Below the pieces are notes generated by a model. It did no database searches and was not told where the DNA came from. It was given only the letters and a program-made list of their open reading frames with translations. Positions 6,771 through 46,062 of a stretch of 47,631 bases of DNA are shown here, one piece after another. Each line of letters begins with the position of its first letter. Position 1 is the first letter of the stretch. Both the position numbers and the translations under genes were made by a program. The DNA comes from Nitrospirota bacterium (GTDB taxonomy: Bacteria; Nitrospirota; UBA9217), in the NCBI GenBank assembly GCA_029858565.1, contig JAOUEV010000025.1, positions 1-47,631 of the forward strand, read 5' to 3'.

Positions 6771-6998
6771 GTACATCCTCAGTTCCGCCAAAAGAAATAA
6801 TAACGTCCGATATGGTACCACAGCAGTCCATGGCCACGCAAACGATCCAGCAGGGTATCTTTCGGGTATTCCCTGCCCCCCCCTGGCCATGTTCCGCCCT
6901 GTCTTGACCTCATTGCCGTGAACAAGCGATTATTCTATTGATCAGCTTGCGCTTTCCGGGCAGGTGTATTATCCTTTTCACAAAGGAGGTTCGCGCTC

Positions 6999-7607
6999 AT
7001 GACCATCCCTATCACGATCTATTCCGACTATATCTGACCATTCTGCTTCATCGGCGAAGGCGTCGTCGAAAAGCTGAAGCAGGAGTTCGATCTCACTGTG
7101 GACTGGATCGGCATCGAGATCCATCCCGAGACGCCGGCAGGCGGCAGGCCGCTCACGGAGCTCTTTCCCGCGGCCGACATCAAGCGAATGACAAATCATC
7201 TCCGCACCATGGCTGCGCCCTTTGGCATCACCTTCGCGGATTTTGCCAATCTGCCGAACAGCCGCAATGCCCATCTTGCCGCGGAATACGCCCGGGCGCA
7301 AGGGAAATTCCCGGAACTTCACGCTTCCCTATTCTCCGCCTACTTCTCCGAAGGCCTCGACATCAGCGATCTGGAAATTCTCGCTGAACTTGCAAAGGAC
7401 GCAGGACTGGACAGCGCCGAGCTGGTGAGGTCGATCCAGCAGGGAACATTCAGCGAAAAGCTCAGCCAGGCTCAGAAAAAAGCAAAGGACCACGATGTGT
7501 CCGGCGTGCCCGCGTTCTTTATCGGTGACAAAGAGCGGATCATGGGGGCTCAGCCGATCGAGGTGTTTCGGAAGGTGCTGAAGACGATCGAGTCAAACCG
7601 TAGCTGA
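6999..7607 (+). CDS. DsbA/FrnE-family thiol oxidoreductase, apparent selenoprotein (in-frame TGA at 7035-7037)
   Basis: Read through the TGA this is a 202-residue DsbA-family (FrnE-like) protein. ATG 6999 has AAAGGAGGT eight bases upstream. The first residues are MTIPITIYSDYI, then TGA, then PFCFIG. Family members have Cys-Pro-Trp/Phe-Cys exactly here, so the TGA occupies the first cysteine of the redox motif (U13-P14-F15-C16). A helical insert follows (about 60-150), and VSGVPAFFIG supplies the cis-proline loop next to the active site. A cytoplasmic location is likely, as no signal peptide is seen. A hairpin starting six bases after the TGA fits a bacterial SECIS. Without read-through the gene would lack its active site, while the 570 bases after the TGA remain a perfectly conserved-looking frame. 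Sec insertion genes are outside the window. Read-through is inferred; the frame and motif are directly visible. Confidence 0.87.
7043..7082 (+). promoter_or_regulatory. SECIS-like hairpin for the DsbA-like gene
   Basis: An eight-pair perfect stem CTGCTTCA (7043-7050) / TGAAGCAG (7075-7082) encloses a six-pair stem TCGGCG (7051-7056) / CGTCGA (7064-7069, one G-U pair) with loop AAGGCGT (7057-7063). A five-base bulge, AAAGC, lies on the 3' side between the stems. The loop contains GG and begins about 20 bases after the TGA, within the spacing known for bacterial SECIS elements. Confidence 0.75.
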
Positions 7608-7666: not shown

Positions 7667-8054
7667 ATGAAACAGCTTGAGAAGTATACGAACGAGATTT
7701 ATGCCATGCTTCGGATCCTTTCGGGATTTATGTTTTCGCTCCACGGCTTTCAGAAGATCTTCGGCCTTCTCTGCGGCATGCAGCGTGCTATCGGATCGCT
7801 GCTCTGGATAGGCGGTGTTATAGAGATGATCGGCGGCATCCGGATCATGGTCGGGCTCCAGACCCGCAGGGGCTGCCTTCATCTGCAGCGGCCAGATGGC
7901 GTTTGCCTATTTCCAGTTCCACTGGAAGTTTTAGATGGGAGAAGCCTTCTTCCCGGTGGTGACCAAGGGTGAGCTTGCCGCGCGGTACTGCTTCGTGTTC
8001 CTGCTCATTGCGACCAAGGGCACGGTCCTGTGGGGAATTGACAAGAAGGATTGA
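7667..8054 (+). pseudogene. Broken doxX-family membrane protein gene
   Basis: The first ~65 codons encode a normal DoxX-type start with membrane segments (FMFSLHGFQKIFGLL, GSLLWIGGVIEMIGGI). One extra base then appears in the GGGG run near 7868-7871; correcting it gives AAFICSGQMAFAYFQFHWKF, directly followed by TAG at 7932-7934, and then MGEAFFPVVTKGELA to a stop at 8052-8054. A frameshift plus a nonsense codon make this a decayed gene, unless both are sequence errors. It follows the DsbA-like gene by 59 bases with AAGGAAG before ATG 7667 and was probably in its operon. A second copy of its 3' end lies at about 13515-13638. Confidence 0.8.
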
Positions 8055-8074
8055 AAGGCTACGATCACCGGTAC

Positions 8075-8316: not shown

Positions 8317-8916
8317 GTGAAGTGGATATATTCGATATGTTTTATAATAATTTGCTGTGCTGCTCATCCGCTTACCGCATACGCAGAATTTCTCGGACCC
8401 TATTCCGGCACGGTATACGACTCAACATCCGGTAAACCCATCGAGGGGGCATCAGTACTTTTTTATTGGATGAAGAGAGTGCCTCACTTCGAGATTGTAA
8501 CCGAGCTTATAGACACGAAGCTGACGCGTACAAATGCTAAGGGCACCTACGAGCTGTCGATAGCATTAGCAAGTACAGGCTTGCTCGAAGCCCTTGACTC
8601 CACACATGTGCTGATCTATGAACCGGGATACAAAGTATATATAAAGATGATCGATCATGATAATCCTTACGCAAAATCCGATCCGGAATTTCGAAACCGC
8701 AATAATGTGGTCAAACTCGAGCGCATCCCGCCCGATTTCGATCACAAAGCTCATTGCGAGCGAATAGAGCAAGCCTTGTGGAGTTTGGAACGCCAGTCGC
8801 ATTCGGAGGACAAGGGTGTGAGTGGGTTCGGGAGAAGCATGCCCTTTGAAAAGGGGCTGTTTCTCAGGCGCGTAGAATGGGAGAAGCGCAGGCAACTGAG
8901 GGAGGGTCGCAAGTGA
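8317..8916 (+). CDS. Secreted protein with a carboxypeptidase-regulatory-like (Ig-type) domain
   Basis: A 199-residue protein. GTG 8317 has CAGGAGG seven bases before it. Residues 1-23 are a clear signal peptide ending in AYA-EF. Residues about 27-115 (YSGTVYDSTSGKPIEGASV and a TNAKGTYEL-type turn) have the pattern of the small beta-sandwich domains that follow carboxypeptidases and occur in many exported proteins. The rest is charged, without recognisable motifs. Its last four bases overlap the start of the next gene, so the two are translated together. Base composition is more AT-rich than the flanking genes, a sign of separate origin. Function unknown. Confidence 0.75.
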   Translation: MKWIYSICFIIICCAAHPLTAYAEFLGPYSGTVYDSTSGKPIEGASVLFYWMKRVPHFEIVTELIDTKLTRTNAKGTYELSIALASTGLLEALDSTHVLIYEPGYKVYIKMIDHDNPYAKSDPEFRNRNNVVKLERIPPDFDHKAHCERIEQALWSLERQSHSEDKGVSGFGRSMPFEKGLFLRRVEWEKRRQLREGRK

Positions 8917-11900
8917 GGTCATCTTTCCTATGGGGCTGCCTAGCTCTCTGTCTCAGCCTTTTTCCTGCTACAGGAATTTCAAGCGATCAAGATAGATACT
9001 TGTCCTACTGGCTGGAGCTATTGAGACAGGGGAATGCTCAAGAGAAGCAACTGGCGCTGGGTAGCCTGGGCATCCTCCGTTATGAAGAATACAGAAAGGA
9101 CACCAAGGTGCTCGATCCGATCTTCGCAGCGCTTAAGGATAAGGATTCTGCCGTGCGTGAAGCTGCCGCAGCATTTTGGACGCATATGGAGGGCCCTCTT
9201 GGTATTTCCATGTTCAAGTCGAATATGGCCTCCCATTTTTTACCTGCATTGCAGGATGATGTGCCCGCTGTGCGTGCTGAAATAGCGAAGGCGATTGCGG
9301 TTCAGCAGTCCTTCGCCAACCAGCAATTGGTCGACGCTCTCATCAAAGGTCTAAGGGATAAGGACATTTGGGTAAGGGTGAATGTTGTTTACGCGCTTGG
9401 AGAGCTTGGGAAAAAGTATTGGTCTTTTTCTACGAAGAAGATACCTTTGCCGGATCAACAGCCGATCATGCCCCGAGATAATCACAAGCGAAGGACAAAA
9501 TCCGGTGCGGTGCCTGGTGGTGTAACGGCCCCGGGAGCAGATCCGCCATATCGCTCGACCAACAAGGATGGGTCTCGCGGACGACGACGAGCGGACACTC
9601 ACGAGATAGCTCATCATCCGGCTCTTGAAGACGAGTCAGCACTCAGCGATTGTGTTCCTTCCGGAAACGGCTATAAGGTGGAGATAACTAAGCAATTGTT
9701 GGCAAGCGCTCAATCTCTTGATGTAAGCGGCGCCATAGTATCCATGACGAGACTGCTCGAAGAGGACGTTGACTGGCGTGATGTATTCGTCAAACAAGAG
9801 GTCGTGTATGCCTTTGCAAAGATGCATGTCGAGGATGAAGAGGCTATTGGCACGTTGTTGCGGAAGTACGATCATCCCTATTTGAAGAAACCAATCATAG
9901 AAACCCTGGGTATTATCGGAGCGCTCCAAGCCGAGCAGGCGCTCTTGAGATCGCTCGAGGACAATGATGAAAGCATTCGAAAGATCGCTCTTAATTCGCT
10001 GTCGGCGCTGCCGATCAAATGGGCGGAGCGAAAGAAGGAAAGAACTATTCAGATCTACAAGGATCAACTGACCAATCGATACCCGGAAGCCCGAATATAT
10101 GCCGTACGAGTTTTGGCTCGGGCAGCCTTTGTGGAGTGCGAGAAGCTTATTGTTTCCTTGCTTGGCGACAGAAATGAATCGGTCGTGATAGCGGTCGTAG
10201 AGGAACTGGGGCGACGCTGCGACGACAGGTTCCTTAAGGATCTCATCCCCCTTTTCGCGAGTGATAATGAGTTGGTACGAGATGCATCCGTTAAGGCCTT
10301 TCATCAGATTGCCGAGAGGACCACAAAGGAGCACGCTCTTGGCGAGCGAAAAGGCACATCGCGGTCTACTATAATGTTGAGTGATAATATGCCGCGACTG
10401 CATGCTCGCCAGATTCATCGAACAGCCTCCGGGTTGCTCATTGCGGTATTGGCAAAAGGAAGTGTAGTCGGGACAATGAGCGCATTGAGTATACTTGACG
10501 ATTTCGAAGATGAAAGGATCGAACCCCAACTGATCCGGTTGCTCGATAATAACTCGCTGAAAGTGCGCAATCGATCCGCATTCCTCCTCCGAGAATATGG
10601 GACCGACCAGGCTGTGGCGGCATTGGTCAAGGCACTCGATACCGCAGACAGATCGCTTAAGCTGAATTTGATATTTGCACTGGATGTCATTGGAGATATG
10701 CGCGCGAAAGATCCCTTGATTGCAATGCTTAAAGACAAGGACGAGACTGTCCGGTCCTATGCGTTAAGTGCGCTTGGGAAATATGATGATTCGTCAGTAG
10801 CAGATGCCTCCCTTCGCTCGCTCTCCGGTGAAACATCGGGAGCGGATCGAGCTTCTGCAATCAAGCTGTTAGGCAATAAACGGGATCCGCGTGCTGTGGA
10901 GTTGACGTTGAGTGCGCTGAACGAATATTGGGGACCCTCTGAATTCATGTTGAGCGAATTTGGTGATGTATCCTCTCAACAACGTGTGAGCGAAATTCTT
11001 GAGCGGTATGGATTGTTGAAAGATCAAGAGCTCATCATAAGCTTGAACAAATTGCTAGACAAACCAGATCTGTACAAGAAAATAAAGCATGATCACGAGT
11101 GGCAGCGTATATCGAAACGACTGGAAATGCTTGAGCAGAGATACAACAGGTCACAAAAGGCACCAGAGCTTCGTATATTGAACCGTGGGGTTTTGGAAGA
11201 ATTCTACCCGCAGGCGTTCCACAAGAGATATGACGACAAGACCGGTAACGTGATCAAGGTGATGCCAGAGCTTGAGTATTTGGGTAAGATTGGTGAAAAG
11301 CGGGCCGTCGAGCCCATCCTTTCTATTCTCGAAAATGAAATGAAGAAAGGGCCGGGGGTCGATGACCATTACAAAGTTCCGCTGGTCTCTGCACTCGGTC
11401 GACTGGACGATCTGCGACCTGTAGGGGTATTCGCTCAACTCCTGAGGTGCAAGGAGTCGTCGAATCCACTGAAAGAGGAAGTTCTCAAGGCATTAGGCCG
11501 GCTGAAAGCACGTGAAGCTGTTTCCCTGCTGCGGCAAATGTTGCAGGATGGGCGGAACGGGCTAGTTATGCGAGCGATTCAGGCCCTCGGAGAAATTGGC
11601 GATCCGCAAGTTATCGATGATTTGAAGGCAAAACTGTATCAAGATACCAGTATGTCGCCGTATGTAGTAAAAGCACTTTTACAGATCGGCGGCGACCGCG
11701 CGACTCTCGTGCTTATCGAGTACATGGTGGGGGACGGCGCCATGTCGAGCCATGATGATATATTCAGCTTTGTTCAGAGCTTGGACAGAAATCAGGCGGT
11801 CAGATTTTTCTTGAAATTCGCCGGAACAGCAGGTCGCGCAGATCGTCGGATCGTGAAGGTCGTTGAGATTCTTAAGACCTATAAGCCGCTGGCACAGATC

Positions 11901-13382
11901 GAGCAAATTGCACGCAGAAGCGAGGAGGAGGACCGGGACCTGTGGGTGGGCTATGTGCTCTTACTGGGAGAATTGCGGGACCCCGCCTTCATCAAGCCGC
12001 TCAAACAATATCTGAGAGATCCCGATCCTCGAGTGCGTAAAATAGCCCAAGAATCTTTGGAAGTCATCGAAGCCTCGAGTGTCGGTAACAACGCAGAAAA
12101 AGCACTGCCTGCTTCACAAGGAAAAAGGAATTTCGATGCCAGTATAAAGAACCGCTTGTGGTCGCAACGCTTGGCTATCAGGACAGCTTTTGCGAATGCC
12201 GTTCCAATGGCGCTAGATGGTCAATCTATTTACCTGGGGGGGTTCGGCGCAAGGACCAATCCCCGCTATCCAGTGCTTGACACGGCCTGGAAATTGGAGA
12301 AACGGGCTGTAGCGGATGGCGCGTCGATTCCGAAATTCGGCGACCAAGGAATAGTTTCAACCGATGCCACAGGCCGTATTACCGGCTTGGCTATTGAGGC
12401 GGCGTCCATCTATATGTGCGGATTTGACGAGGAGTTGACCACTCGGCGCTACCTGTGGCGTGTCGAAAAGAGACGATCTGAAGACGGTCTTCTTGACCCT
12501 GAGTTTGGCACCGGCGGAATAGTTAAAGTAAAACCCCAGAGTAATAATGAAAATTTAATGCCGTCGGCAATTCTATCTGTTGAGGATAATCTTATTGTCG
12601 CGGGTCACTGGACCAGATCCTCGCCCATGTATACGAGCCAAGCTCGGTTAGAAAAGCGCTCGAAGAAAACCGGTGCTTTGGTCGCTAAGTTTGGCATGCA
12701 GGGCGTCGTAATGATCGATGCATATGATATCCTAGCTGTCGCTGCCGATGCTTCCAACATCTATGTAGCAGCCGTGGATCACTCACTTGGAGTATCTGAT
12801 GCGCGCTGGCATATTCAGAAAAGATCATTAGAAAATGGCTCGCTTGTCTCATCATTTGGCCTCGATGGAATAGTAACTGAGAATCCGGGGCCGAGCGAAG
12901 ATCAGATCAATGCGCTTGCGGTCGAGGGCGACTATCTTTATGCTGTTGGCTTCAGCGTTATACCAGGAAAGTACACTGAGTGGCGAATTGAAAAACGCCG
13001 AACATCTGACGGCGCACTTGTTCCTTCATTCGGCAGGGCAGGTATTGTAACGAGCAGCAGGGGCACTGGATACGATCGGGCAATATCATTGGCGATCGAT
13101 CGGATAACGCCCGGGTTCATGTATATCGTTGGCAGGCATTCCGCGGGAGGTACCAAAGATAAACAATGGCGAATCGAAAAGCGTCGACTGGACAACGGAT
13201 CGCTTGTTGCTGATTTCGGAGAAGAAGGAATCATAACTTACAATCCAAGCGAACTCAGTGAAGGGGCTGCAGGTATAGTCGCAGACGATAGATTCATCTA
13301 TGTTACTGGAGACGATTACAGTCAGGTTAAATCCAATAGCGCGGGAGGCGGTATGTGGCAGTTGCTGAAATTTGCAAAGTAA
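8913..13382 (+). CDS. Very large exported HEAT-repeat protein with C-terminal delta-60-type repeats
   Basis: About 1489 residues. The GTG at 8913 overlaps the previous stop (GTGA) and has GGGAGG before it; it gives a signal peptide (MRSSFLWGCLALCLSLFPA), so it is preferred over the upstream ATG. Residues about 30-190 and 260-1060 consist of HEAT-like helical repeats (patterns such as LKDKDSAVREAAAAF and LRDPDPRVRKIAQESL). A charged low-complexity insert interrupts them at about 190-250. The last ~400 residues carry at least six copies of a unit with WRIEKR, then about ten residues, then FG.xGIV, the delta-60 repeat pattern thought to form a beta-propeller. This suggests a periplasmic or surface scaffold; no catalytic motif was found. 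GC is visibly lower than in flanking genes, consistent with acquisition by transfer. Confidence 0.8.
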   Translation: MRSSFLWGCLALCLSLFPATGISSDQDRYLSYWLELLRQGNAQEKQLALGSLGILRYEEYRKDTKVLDPIFAALKDKDSAVREAAAAFWTHMEGPLGISMFKSNMASHFLPALQDDVPAVRAEIAKAIAVQQSFANQQLVDALIKGLRDKDIWVRVNVVYALGELGKKYWSFSTKKIPLPDQQPIMPRDNHKRRTKSGAVPGGVTAPGADPPYRSTNKDGSRGRRRADTHEIAHHPALEDESALSDCVPSGNGYKVEITKQLLASAQSLDVSGAIVSMTRLLEEDVDWRDVFVKQEVVYAFAKMHVEDEEAIGTLLRKYDHPYLKKPIIETLGIIGALQAEQALLRSLEDNDESIRKIALNSLSALPIKWAERKKERTIQIYKDQLTNRYPEARIYAVRVLARAAFVECEKLIVSLLGDRNESVVIAVVEELGRRCDDRFLKDLIPLFASDNELVRDASVKAFHQIAERTTKEHALGERKGTSRSTIMLSDNMPRLHARQIHRTASGLLIAVLAKGSVVGTMSALSILDDFEDERIEPQLIRLLDNNSLKVRNRSAFLLREYGTDQAVAALVKALDTADRSLKLNLIFALDVIGDMRAKDPLIAMLKDKDETVRSYALSALGKYDDSSVADASLRSLSGETSGADRASAIKLLGNKRDPRAVELTLSALNEYWGPSEFMLSEFGDVSSQQRVSEILERYGLLKDQELIISLNKLLDKPDLYKKIKHDHEWQRISKRLEMLEQRYNRSQKAPELRILNRGVLEEFYPQAFHKRYDDKTGNVIKVMPELEYLGKIGEKRAVEPILSILENEMKKGPGVDDHYKVPLVSALGRLDDLRPVGVFAQLLRCKESSNPLKEEVLKALGRLKAREAVSLLRQMLQDGRNGLVMRAIQALGEIGDPQVIDDLKAKLYQDTSMSPYVVKALLQIGGDRATLVLIEYMVGDGAMSSHDDIFSFVQSLDRNQAVRFFLKFAGTAGRADRRIVKVVEILKTYKPLAQIEQIARRSEEEDRDLWVGYVLLLGELRDPAFIKPLKQYLRDPDPRVRKIAQESLEVIEASSVGNNAEKALPASQGKRNFDASIKNRLWSQRLAIRTAFANAVPMALDGQSIYLGGFGARTNPRYPVLDTAWKLEKRAVADGASIPKFGDQGIVSTDATGRITGLAIEAASIYMCGFDEELTTRRYLWRVEKRRSEDGLLDPEFGTGGIVKVKPQSNNENLMPSAILSVEDNLIVAGHWTRSSPMYTSQARLEKRSKKTGALVAKFGMQGVVMIDAYDILAVAADASNIYVAAVDHSLGVSDARWHIQKRSLENGSLVSSFGLDGIVTENPGPSEDQINALAVEGDYLYAVGFSVIPGKYTEWRIEKRRTSDGALVPSFGRAGIVTSSRGTGYDRAISLAIDRITPGFMYIVGRHSAGGTKDKQWRIEKRRLDNGSLVADFGEEGIITYNPSELSEGAAGIVADDRFIYVTGDDYSQVKSNSAGGGMWQLLKFAK

Positions 13383-43710: not shown

Positions 43711-46062
43711 CTACTCCGTCGCTCCCGCCTCTCGCAGGATCTTCGCGATGCGATGCTTGCCGTTCCGCTTTGCGGTCTTGAGCGCCGTAAAGCCATTGGC
43801 CGCCTTCAGTCGAGTGTCGGCCCCGTGTTTGAGCAGCAACCTTACCAGCTCTTCATTCCCTGCGGCGGCAGCGATCGTAAGCGCCGTCTCGCCGCTCTTC
43901 CTAGCCTCGTTGACCGGAGCGCCGGCTTGGAGAAGCAATTCTGCCGCCTCCGTGCTGCCTCCGTCGGCCGCACTGGTCAGCGCTGTCCACACGGCAGCGT
44001 TCCCGGCCCGGACACGAGCTTTCCGCTCGAGCAGCAGCCGTATGATATCGACCGCGCCCGCGCCCGCAGCATTCAACAGCGCCTCGCCGTCCTTTCCATT
44101 CGGGTCAGCGCCGTTCTCCAGGAGGAATTGTACAATGGCCAGATAGTCCTTCGGCGCAGCCGTGCTGCCAAGCCGGCTCGAACCCGCTGCCACGGCAAGA
44201 GCGGCCGGAATGCCCTCCTTCGCTCCCTGTTTTACCAGTAGCCGCACCGTTGAGGCCCGTCCCCGCATGGCAGCCTGCTCCAATGCTGCGTCTTTTCCCT
44301 TCGCCCCCTTTTCGAGCAAAAGCTTCACGATCTTGTCGTTTCCGCCCCGCGCTGCCATCAGCAAGGCCCTGTCGGATGAAGCCGTGGCAATCTCCACGTC
44401 GGCGCCCTTCGCGAGCAGGGCTTTTGCTATGCCCGTATCACCCGCGGCAGCAGCAATCATGAGCGGCGTGTACCCTTTAAGCACTACACCGGTTACCCCT
44501 GCGTTCACCGCCGCGTTTTTATTCAGAAGCGCCTTCACTTCCATTTTTTTGCCGTTGATAACGGCATCCAGGAGGTCGCTTCCTTCCGCAGCCTCGAGCT
44601 CGGCCGTAACCCCGTGTGACCGGAGATACCGCGCGATCTCGGGCCTGCCCCGGTACACCGCCGCATGCAGCAATCCGGTCCCTATCTCATTCCTTGTTTG
44701 CAAGTCGCCGCCGCGCTTCACCAGGAACTTGACCATATCGATATCTCCAAGCGCAACGGCCATCCCCAGCGCCGTCCTGCCGTTCGAAGACCGTAGATTG
44801 ACGTCCGCTCCTCTATCGAGCAGAAGCCGGACAAGCTTCATGTCCTTACTGAGCACCGCAACCTGAAGCGCAGCCTGTTCTTCCTTCGGCACCGCATTCA
44901 CATCCGCACCCTTCGCGAGCAGCAGCTCAACGATCCGGAGCACGGCTGCATCGATCCGCAACTGTCTCGAGGTTGCGTTCCAGAGGTACTGCGTGAGCGC
45001 GGTCTTCCCGCTGCCGTCCGCAGCATTGACATCAGCTCCCTTCTCGATCAGAAGCTGCATGAGCGGCCCGCTCCCGACAAAAGAGGCGGCAAGCAGCGGA
45101 GTGAAACCGTCCATCCCCTTCCCGTTCACGTCCGCGCCCTTTTCGATCAATCGGGCGGCGATCATTTCGTCGCCATTGAACGCGGCGACTAGGAGCGGCG
45201 TGATCTCTTCCTCACGGTCCGTCTTTATAACGATCCGGGCGTCCGCATCGGCACCTGCGCCGAGCAGGTCCTCGGTCATCTCGCTTTCGCCGCCGGCAAC
45301 GGCAAGAGCAAGCGCGAGCCCGGCAGCTGGTCCCTTCATATCCATGCCTCCGCCCTTCAACTGGTTTCGCAGCAAATCCCTGTCGCCTTCGAGAATCGCG
45401 AGCAGCATCTTCGGCTCCTGCTCGTTGACGCTGAATCCCTGTCCGCGGACTGCGCGGAGCATCTCGACCACCTCGCGCTCCTGCTTGCTGTCGACCACCT
45501 GCTCCACGATCAACCCGCCCAGGAACCTGCCGGAAAAGTCGAGCTTCTCGCCGCCCTTCTTGACCAGGTGGGAAAGGGCGCCGGTCTTCTTCATTACGAA
45601 TGCGATCTCTGCTGGCGTCATGGCTCCAGCCTTCAGATTCAGGCGGTCCTTTACCGAAATGCCGCTCGCCAGGAACCGGTCGATCACCTCGGTGCTGCCG
45701 CCGCTGATCGCATAAGCGAATGCCGGGGCTCCGTCGTCAGCGCTTATCATCGTAGCGCTCGCCCCTGCCTTCAGAAGGAGCATCACCATATCCGGCCGTC
45801 CAGCCGCCGCAGCTGCCATTAGTGCCGTGCAGTCGGAGCAGGACTGGGTAGCCACCCTGAACGTGGCCTTCGCGTCAACCGGCCCTTTTGCAGCAAGATA
45901 CTCCTGGACCTTTTGTATGTCCCCGTCAGCCGCTGCCTGCACATAGGCCTGTTTCGCTTCCGTCTTCGGGCTTACCGCTGACGCCGTACCGGCAATCGCT
46001 TTCCCGGGCAACCAAAGTATTGCGGCGACCAGCAACAGGATGATCAGCTTCCGTGCCTTCAT
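43711..46062 (-). CDS. Exported ankyrin-repeat protein
   Basis: 783 residues. Signal peptide at 1-24 (LIILLLVAAILWLPGKAIA). Then about 20 ankyrin repeats through almost the whole protein; good examples are GFTPLLAASFVGSGPLMQLLIEKGADVN, broken only by a less regular section at about 140-230. The last repeat is GFTALKTAKRNGKHRIAKIL. Ankyrin arrays bind protein partners; this one should be periplasmic. GAGGAGG before ATG 46062 confirms the start. It ends 27 bases before the next gene on the same strand, so the two may share a message. Confidence 0.87.
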   Translation of the reverse strand: MKARKLIILLLVAAILWLPGKAIAGTASAVSPKTEAKQAYVQAAADGDIQKVQEYLAAKGPVDAKATFRVATQSCSDCTALMAAAAAGRPDMVMLLLKAGASATMISADDGAPAFAYAISGGSTEVIDRFLASGISVKDRLNLKAGAMTPAEIAFVMKKTGALSHLVKKGGEKLDFSGRFLGGLIVEQVVDSKQEREVVEMLRAVRGQGFSVNEQEPKMLLAILEGDRDLLRNQLKGGGMDMKGPAAGLALALAVAGGESEMTEDLLGAGADADARIVIKTDREEEITPLLVAAFNGDEMIAARLIEKGADVNGKGMDGFTPLLAASFVGSGPLMQLLIEKGADVNAADGSGKTALTQYLWNATSRQLRIDAAVLRIVELLLAKGADVNAVPKEEQAALQVAVLSKDMKLVRLLLDRGADVNLRSSNGRTALGMAVALGDIDMVKFLVKRGGDLQTRNEIGTGLLHAAVYRGRPEIARYLRSHGVTAELEAAEGSDLLDAVINGKKMEVKALLNKNAAVNAGVTGVVLKGYTPLMIAAAAGDTGIAKALLAKGADVEIATASSDRALLMAARGGNDKIVKLLLEKGAKGKDAALEQAAMRGRASTVRLLVKQGAKEGIPAALAVAAGSSRLGSTAAPKDYLAIVQFLLENGADPNGKDGEALLNAAGAGAVDIIRLLLERKARVRAGNAAVWTALTSAADGGSTEAAELLLQAGAPVNEARKSGETALTIAAAAGNEELVRLLLKHGADTRLKAANGFTALKTAKRNGKHRIAKILREAGATE

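Follow-up and report, generated by a model that had tools for sequence, protein, structure and literature searches.

The window, by which we mean the whole stretch of 47,631 nucleotides of Nitrospirota DNA analysed here, contains a gene whose thirteenth codon is an in-frame TGA that, from comparison with its relatives, almost certainly encodes selenocysteine (Sec). We are highly confident that the product is a cytoplasmic FrnE-type thiol-disulfide oxidoreductase with the DsbA fold, in which Sec takes the place of the nucleophilic cysteine (U13-P-F-C16) and acts in a Sec13/Cys16 cycle. The evidence is comparative throughout, and consists of the conservation of the TGA, the Sec machinery, the covariation of a SECIS hairpin and the predicted fold; from it we infer that Sec is actually incorporated in the protein. 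The features of the gene are compiled in Table 1.

Table 1. Features of the Sec-FrnE-like gene, with positions counted from the first nucleotide of the window.
Feature	Position	Strand	Basis
Ribosome-binding site AAAGGAGG	6982-6989	+	Sequence; 9 nt before the ATG
Complete CDS of the predicted Sec-FrnE/DsbA-like protein, 202 residues including Sec13	6999-7607	+	Read-through of the TGA at codon 13
In-frame TGA, almost certainly Sec13, opening the U-P-F-C redox motif	7035-7037	+	Homologous codon is TGA in 35 verified of the 87 genes compared
Bacterial SECIS-like hairpin	7041-7084	+	RNA fold; -21.4 kcal/mol, z -3.9 vs dinucleotide shuffles
TGC, Cys16, the resolving Cys of UxxC and the only one in the protein	7044-7046	+	Invariant in the alignment
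SECIS core, apical stem of 7 bp (7051-7057 paired to 7063-7069) with a loop of 5 nt, AGGCG (7058-7062)	7051-7069	+	Covariation; 20 nt after the TGA
GGC, Gly21, whose first two bases are the G's conserved in the SECIS loop	7059-7061	+	Gly in 28 of 35 Sec and 2 of 52 Cys proteins
CCC, Pro171, at the presumed cis-Pro position facing the active site	7509-7511	+	Invariant alignment column

Reading frame and fold of the product

Twelve codons (MTIPITIYSDYI) lead from the ATG to the TGA, which is followed by PFCFIG and by a frame that stays open up to the true stop, a second TGA at 7605-7607. Read through, the protein matches the Pfam family PF01323 (DSBA) over residues 5-194 with 132 bits (2.3e-38; cut-off 25.6 bits). 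Both redox positions, U13 and C16, are invariant in the alignment, and these are the only redox residues, a C-terminal CX4C being absent from the window protein. The role of Pro171 as the cis-Pro is one that we take over from thioredoxin-fold proteins generally.

The AlphaFold2 model of the protein has a pLDDT of 95.8, and the top Foldseek matches of the model are the structures 5co3 and 5cp1 of Deinococcus radiodurans FrnE, with TM values of 0.91-0.92. The same protein is matched by sequence in the PDB at 1.3e-20 over residues 3-194. Judged from the sequence and the model, the first strand occupies residues 3-9 and there is no hydrophobic leader; the protein is predicted to be cytoplasmic, with no export signal. 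We consider it unlikely that this is a Sec protein of another kind, a glutathione-transferase-kappa or HCCA-isomerase-like enzyme. Those enzymes have the DsbA fold in common with it, HCCA isomerase being detected by sequence at 8.8e-9 and GST kappa by fold, but FrnE is closer on both counts (1.3e-20 by sequence, and a TM of 0.91 vs 0.83 and 0.78 for HCCA isomerase/GST kappa-type folds), and the invariant two-residue pair of U13 and C16 points to thiol/selenol-disulfide chemistry.

Ordinary ORF calling starts the gene at a GTG at 7098 and yields a protein of 169 aa (7098-7607) from which strand 1 and the active site are lost. A true internal start at this codon, giving a truncated protein without the redox site, is what standard gene callers would be expected to report, and we hold it to be very improbable: a consensus Shine-Dalgarno sequence precedes the ATG at 6999, residues conserved in the family (SDYI) are already encoded ahead of the TGA, and a start at the GTG would cost a domain conserved from residue 3 its first strand and its active site. 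The version truncated at the GTG scores 93 bits against PF01323. A first reading of the DNA, made from the sequence only, had described a strong ribosome site before an ATG at 6999, twelve codons, the TGA, PFCFIG and intact family sequence after it, and had foreseen that a gene finder would begin near 7098; we recovered the same ribosome-binding site, the same frame and the same truncated call.

The surroundings of the gene are not conserved across the family genomes compared and give no hint of a partner or substrate, the sole recurring neighbour being an upstream response-regulator gene, in one genome. Directly downstream in the window lies a DoxX-like gene (7667-8056) whose frame shifts near 7870 and whose second frame is interrupted by a TAG at 7932-7934; it is probably a pseudogene or an assembly error and does not adjoin the Sec gene in relatives. 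The window also encodes a HEAT-repeat protein of 1501 aa (8877-13382), just downstream of the Sec gene, and an ankyrin-repeat protein of 783 aa on the minus strand (43711-46062).

Conservation of the TGA codon

Of the 13 further genomes in this bacterial family, 9 have an orthologue, with 48-60% protein identity to the window protein. All nine have exactly one internal stop, which is always TGA and always at the Sec13 codon, within the motif SDYI-U-P(F/Y)C(F/Y)IG; counting the window gene, the codon is TGA in 10 of 10 family orthologues. Sec forms also occur in four other families of the window's phylum and in a second phylum, reached through L053 (a record titled Thermodesulfobacteriota), where 64 of 79 genes have an internal TGA among the matches listed and 19 of the 30 that were fetched have TGA at the redox position. 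The comparison set contains 87 genes, 35 verified TGA (Sec) forms and 52 Cys homologues. The named relatives were found with a Cys-coded query, which biases them to Cys, and are uninformative on the frequency of Sec. In the homologues the TGA aligns with the first Cys of the CxxC (CPFC), so the sequence-only reading was right to place it exactly at the nucleophilic cysteine.

It is extremely improbable that the TGA arose by nonsense mutation or by sequencing error in a Cys gene, which would make the gene a pseudogene or an artefact. The next gene, DoxX-like, looks broken, and local decay or error is conceivable on that account. We dismiss both because the same-codon TGA recurs independently in nine separately assembled genomes of the family, in each with the frame otherwise intact; the same TGA is also found in genomes of another phylum, and the SECIS stem covaries. 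A misread TGC or TGT, which the first reading had named as the result that would speak against it, is excluded by the same nine independent genomes, which also have TGA.

The SECIS hairpin

The hairpin begins 3 nt after the TGA. The constraints published for bacterial SECIS elements are a loop of 3-9 nt, an upper stem of 4-16 bp, a G in the first two loop positions, a spacing of 16-37 nt and a minimum free energy of at most -7.5 kcal/mol (PMC13188914). The window hairpin lies within all of them, with its 5-nt loop AGGCG, 7-bp stem, 20-nt spacing and -21.4 kcal/mol.

When the seven pairs of the apical stem are placed at a fixed, ungapped position in 32 Sec genes of the two phyla, representing 30 distinct sequences, 95.2% of the cells are paired, a value that is somewhat flattered, as three of the 35 Sec genes (L138, L084 and L089) with the hairpin in a different register were left out. 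With all 35 included, 32 have 6-7 of the 7 pairs and these three have 3. The paired share drops to 21-53% in slid registers. Compensatory changes are found at four of the seven pairs (G-C/A-U/U-A, C-G/U-A, A-U/G-C/C-G and A-U/C-G), and the covariation score of the stem is 0.423 vs 0.165 in shuffles, a value as high being reached in 0 of 500. In the Cys homologues the apical stem is absent or decayed, at most 5 of the 7 pairs being present in 51 of 52.

Codon choice is constrained over the hairpin: where two genes encode the same residue, the codons are identical in 79% of the comparisons over the hairpin and in 47-60% elsewhere. Relative to codon-shuffled versions, the fold has a mean z of -1.26 in the Sec genes and -0.11 in the Cys genes, and the p value of 5e-7 for this difference ignores relatedness, which the shuffled controls leave in. 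In one orthologue (L026) the minimum-energy fold is weak (z -0.84) and the support comes from the shared stem geometry. No family was matched in an Rfam scan of the window, a result of little weight given how much bacterial SECIS elements differ among themselves.

A second Sec clade, of the CPWC type with the motif UPWCYF, comprises L085-L088, L141, L145 and L147. Folding by minimum energy mostly fails to show the hairpin in this clade, although the 7-bp geometry is retained, with other base pairs and the loop CGKGC.

Selenocysteine machinery

A search of the same genome for the Sec insertion genes, whose absence would have refuted the first reading by its own terms, returned all four: selA (1.4e-181), selB (1.9e-116), selC as a tRNA-Sec of 64 bits, and two copies of selD, all above curated cut-offs. 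Every one of the 35 genomes with a verified TGA form has machinery, selA in 34 and tRNA-Sec in the remaining one (G004). Within the window's family, nine of the ten gene-bearing genomes have a selA match, which in G008 is a fragment at a contig edge accompanied by a tRNA-Sec, and the tenth is G004, a 74%-complete genome with tRNA-Sec.

In the other families of the window's phylum, selA is present in 6 of 6 Sec-form genomes, and in the phylum it is absent from 12 of 12 Cys-form genomes tested. In the second phylum, selA occurs in all 19 genomes with TGA at the redox position and also in 11 of 14 Cys-form genomes. A rule by which the Sec or Cys form exactly tracks selA is thus true in the window's phylum and fails in the second. 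The rule that survives runs one way: the TGA is never found without machinery.

A variant code, with TGA meaning tryptophan or another residue throughout the organism, would leave the frame open as well, but its probability is negligible, given that the same gene terminates in TGA, that the TGA position is the catalytic Cys and never Trp in homologues, and that the genome has the full Sec machinery and the gene a SECIS hairpin.

Two further observations concern the machinery. Genome G000 has two full-length selD paralogues, L047 (C3:2376-3290) and L048 (C14:90529-91446). In both, an in-frame TGA occupies the Cys/Sec position (SHGAGUACKLG and SRTCGUAAKIG), and going by these sequences both copies of its selenophosphate synthetase seem to be selenoproteins themselves. 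G003, a 96%-complete genome of the same family, has a tRNA-Sec of 61.7 bits with neither a selA match nor a Sec-FrnE gene, which may mean that the Sec trait has been lost in part or that the assembly has a gap.

A glycine tied to the SECIS loop

Gly21 stands eight residues after Sec (+8), and the first two bases of its codon are both of the conserved loop G's. The two Cys proteins with Gly at this place, L053 (3001-3606) and L125, are also the only Cys members of an otherwise Sec clade (24 Sec, 2 Cys, support 96) in a tree that was built by a quick method and contains long branches. Their apical stems are down to 5 of 7 pairs; the genome of L125 has a selA match and that of L053 has none. From their sequences, both are probably Sec-to-Cys revertants in which the Gly has been kept as a fossil, which, with two cases and a quick tree, we regard as a lead. 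The wider scenario, in which the Sec state is old and common to the two phyla, the SECIS loop has shaped the protein through the Gly at +8, and reverting lineages lose the stem and keep the Gly, is one that we advance tentatively and rate a little below an even chance. If it were general, past losses of Sec to Cys could be read from protein sequence by their Gly fossils. The tie between the Gly at +8 and the SECIS loop, and the two Cys revertants with a fossil Gly, are possibly new details.

Proposed mechanism

In the mechanism that we propose, SelB with Sec-tRNA-Sec would read the UGA at 7035-7037 as Sec owing to the SECIS hairpin that adjoins it downstream, and, to judge from the machinery and the hairpin, the terminal TGA at 7605-7607 would remain a stop. 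Sec13 would attack a substrate disulfide or oxidised thiol, and Cys16 would resolve the mixed selenenylsulfide. The resulting Sec13-Cys16 selenenylsulfide would have to be re-reduced by an external partner, because Sec13 and Cys16 are the only redox residues; this reductant is probably thioredoxin or a small, low-molecular thiol. The reaction would run in the direction of a reductase/isomerase and not of an oxidase, and FrnE in a Sec form would imply that disulfides are reduced in the cytoplasm by a selenium-dependent enzyme.

Comparison with known proteins

D. radiodurans FrnE (DR_0659; PDB 5cnw, 5co3 and 5cp1), described as a disulfide reductase/isomerase of the cytoplasm and proposed to use its C-terminal CX4C in regenerating the active site (PMC8945050), shares with the window protein a full-length match, a TM of 0.91, an N-terminal motif of the CP(W/F)C type and the cytoplasmic location predicted here. 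It differs in having Cys at the Sec position and in its additional CX4C, a motif that does not define FrnE, as the FrnE proteins of S. roseofulvus and D. maricopensis lack it (PMC8945050). Periplasmic DsbA of the E. coli type has in common the thioredoxin fold with a helical insertion, the CxxC-type motif and the cis-proline; unlike it, the window protein has no signal peptide and a fold that is less similar to DsbA than to FrnE, and an envelope oxidase role is not indicated.

The Sec-dependent DsbA/FrnE oxidoreductase suggested by the sequence-only reading is strongly supported by the Sec machinery, the TGA in ten species, the covarying SECIS and the FrnE fold. Its view that such a form is seldom if ever annotated is wrong for the literature, in which the form has been known since 2005, and may hold for automatic gene calling. 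Standard callers cut the active site off, which exposes an entire group of probable selenium-dependent redox enzymes to misannotation. The first source is a set of nine predicted sequences from the Sargasso Sea, placed in COG2761 in 2005 (PMC1088965), followed in the GOS data of 2008 by the common "DsbA 1", with 63 sequences (PMC2398784). Animals, too, are among the groups from which Sec-FrnE or DsbA-like selenoproteins have been reported. A Sec-FrnE has been named in green algae (PMC6627142), "FrnE (DsbA)" is included in SelenoDB 2.0 (PMC3965025), and DsbA-like selenoproteins have been described in Asgard archaea (PMC11227280). An inventory of 119 prokaryotic selenoprotein families from 2026 contains "DsbA-like protein form 1, PF01323, UxxC" in its Table 1 (PMC13188914).

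The Sec-FrnE of green algae (Mamiellophyceae, M. viride), the SelenoDB entry and the Asgard DsbA-like proteins are also called Sec forms of FrnE or of the DsbA family, a likeness of name, and they have eukaryotic or archaeal Sec decoding vs the bacterial in-frame SECIS found here. The DsbA-like selenoprotein form 1 (PF01323/COG2761) shares the Pfam family, the UxxC with Sec first, one Sec per protein and a bacterial SECIS directly downstream, and differs in lineage, the likeness being one of description; its published representative is NIP15863.1. The pairs of Sec and Cys orthologues, together with the two probable Cys revertants, offer a clean set in which to compare what Sec contributes and how it comes to be lost. 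The window gene joins the UxxC DsbA-like selenoproteins known since 2005, a solid assignment to a class that is not itself new.
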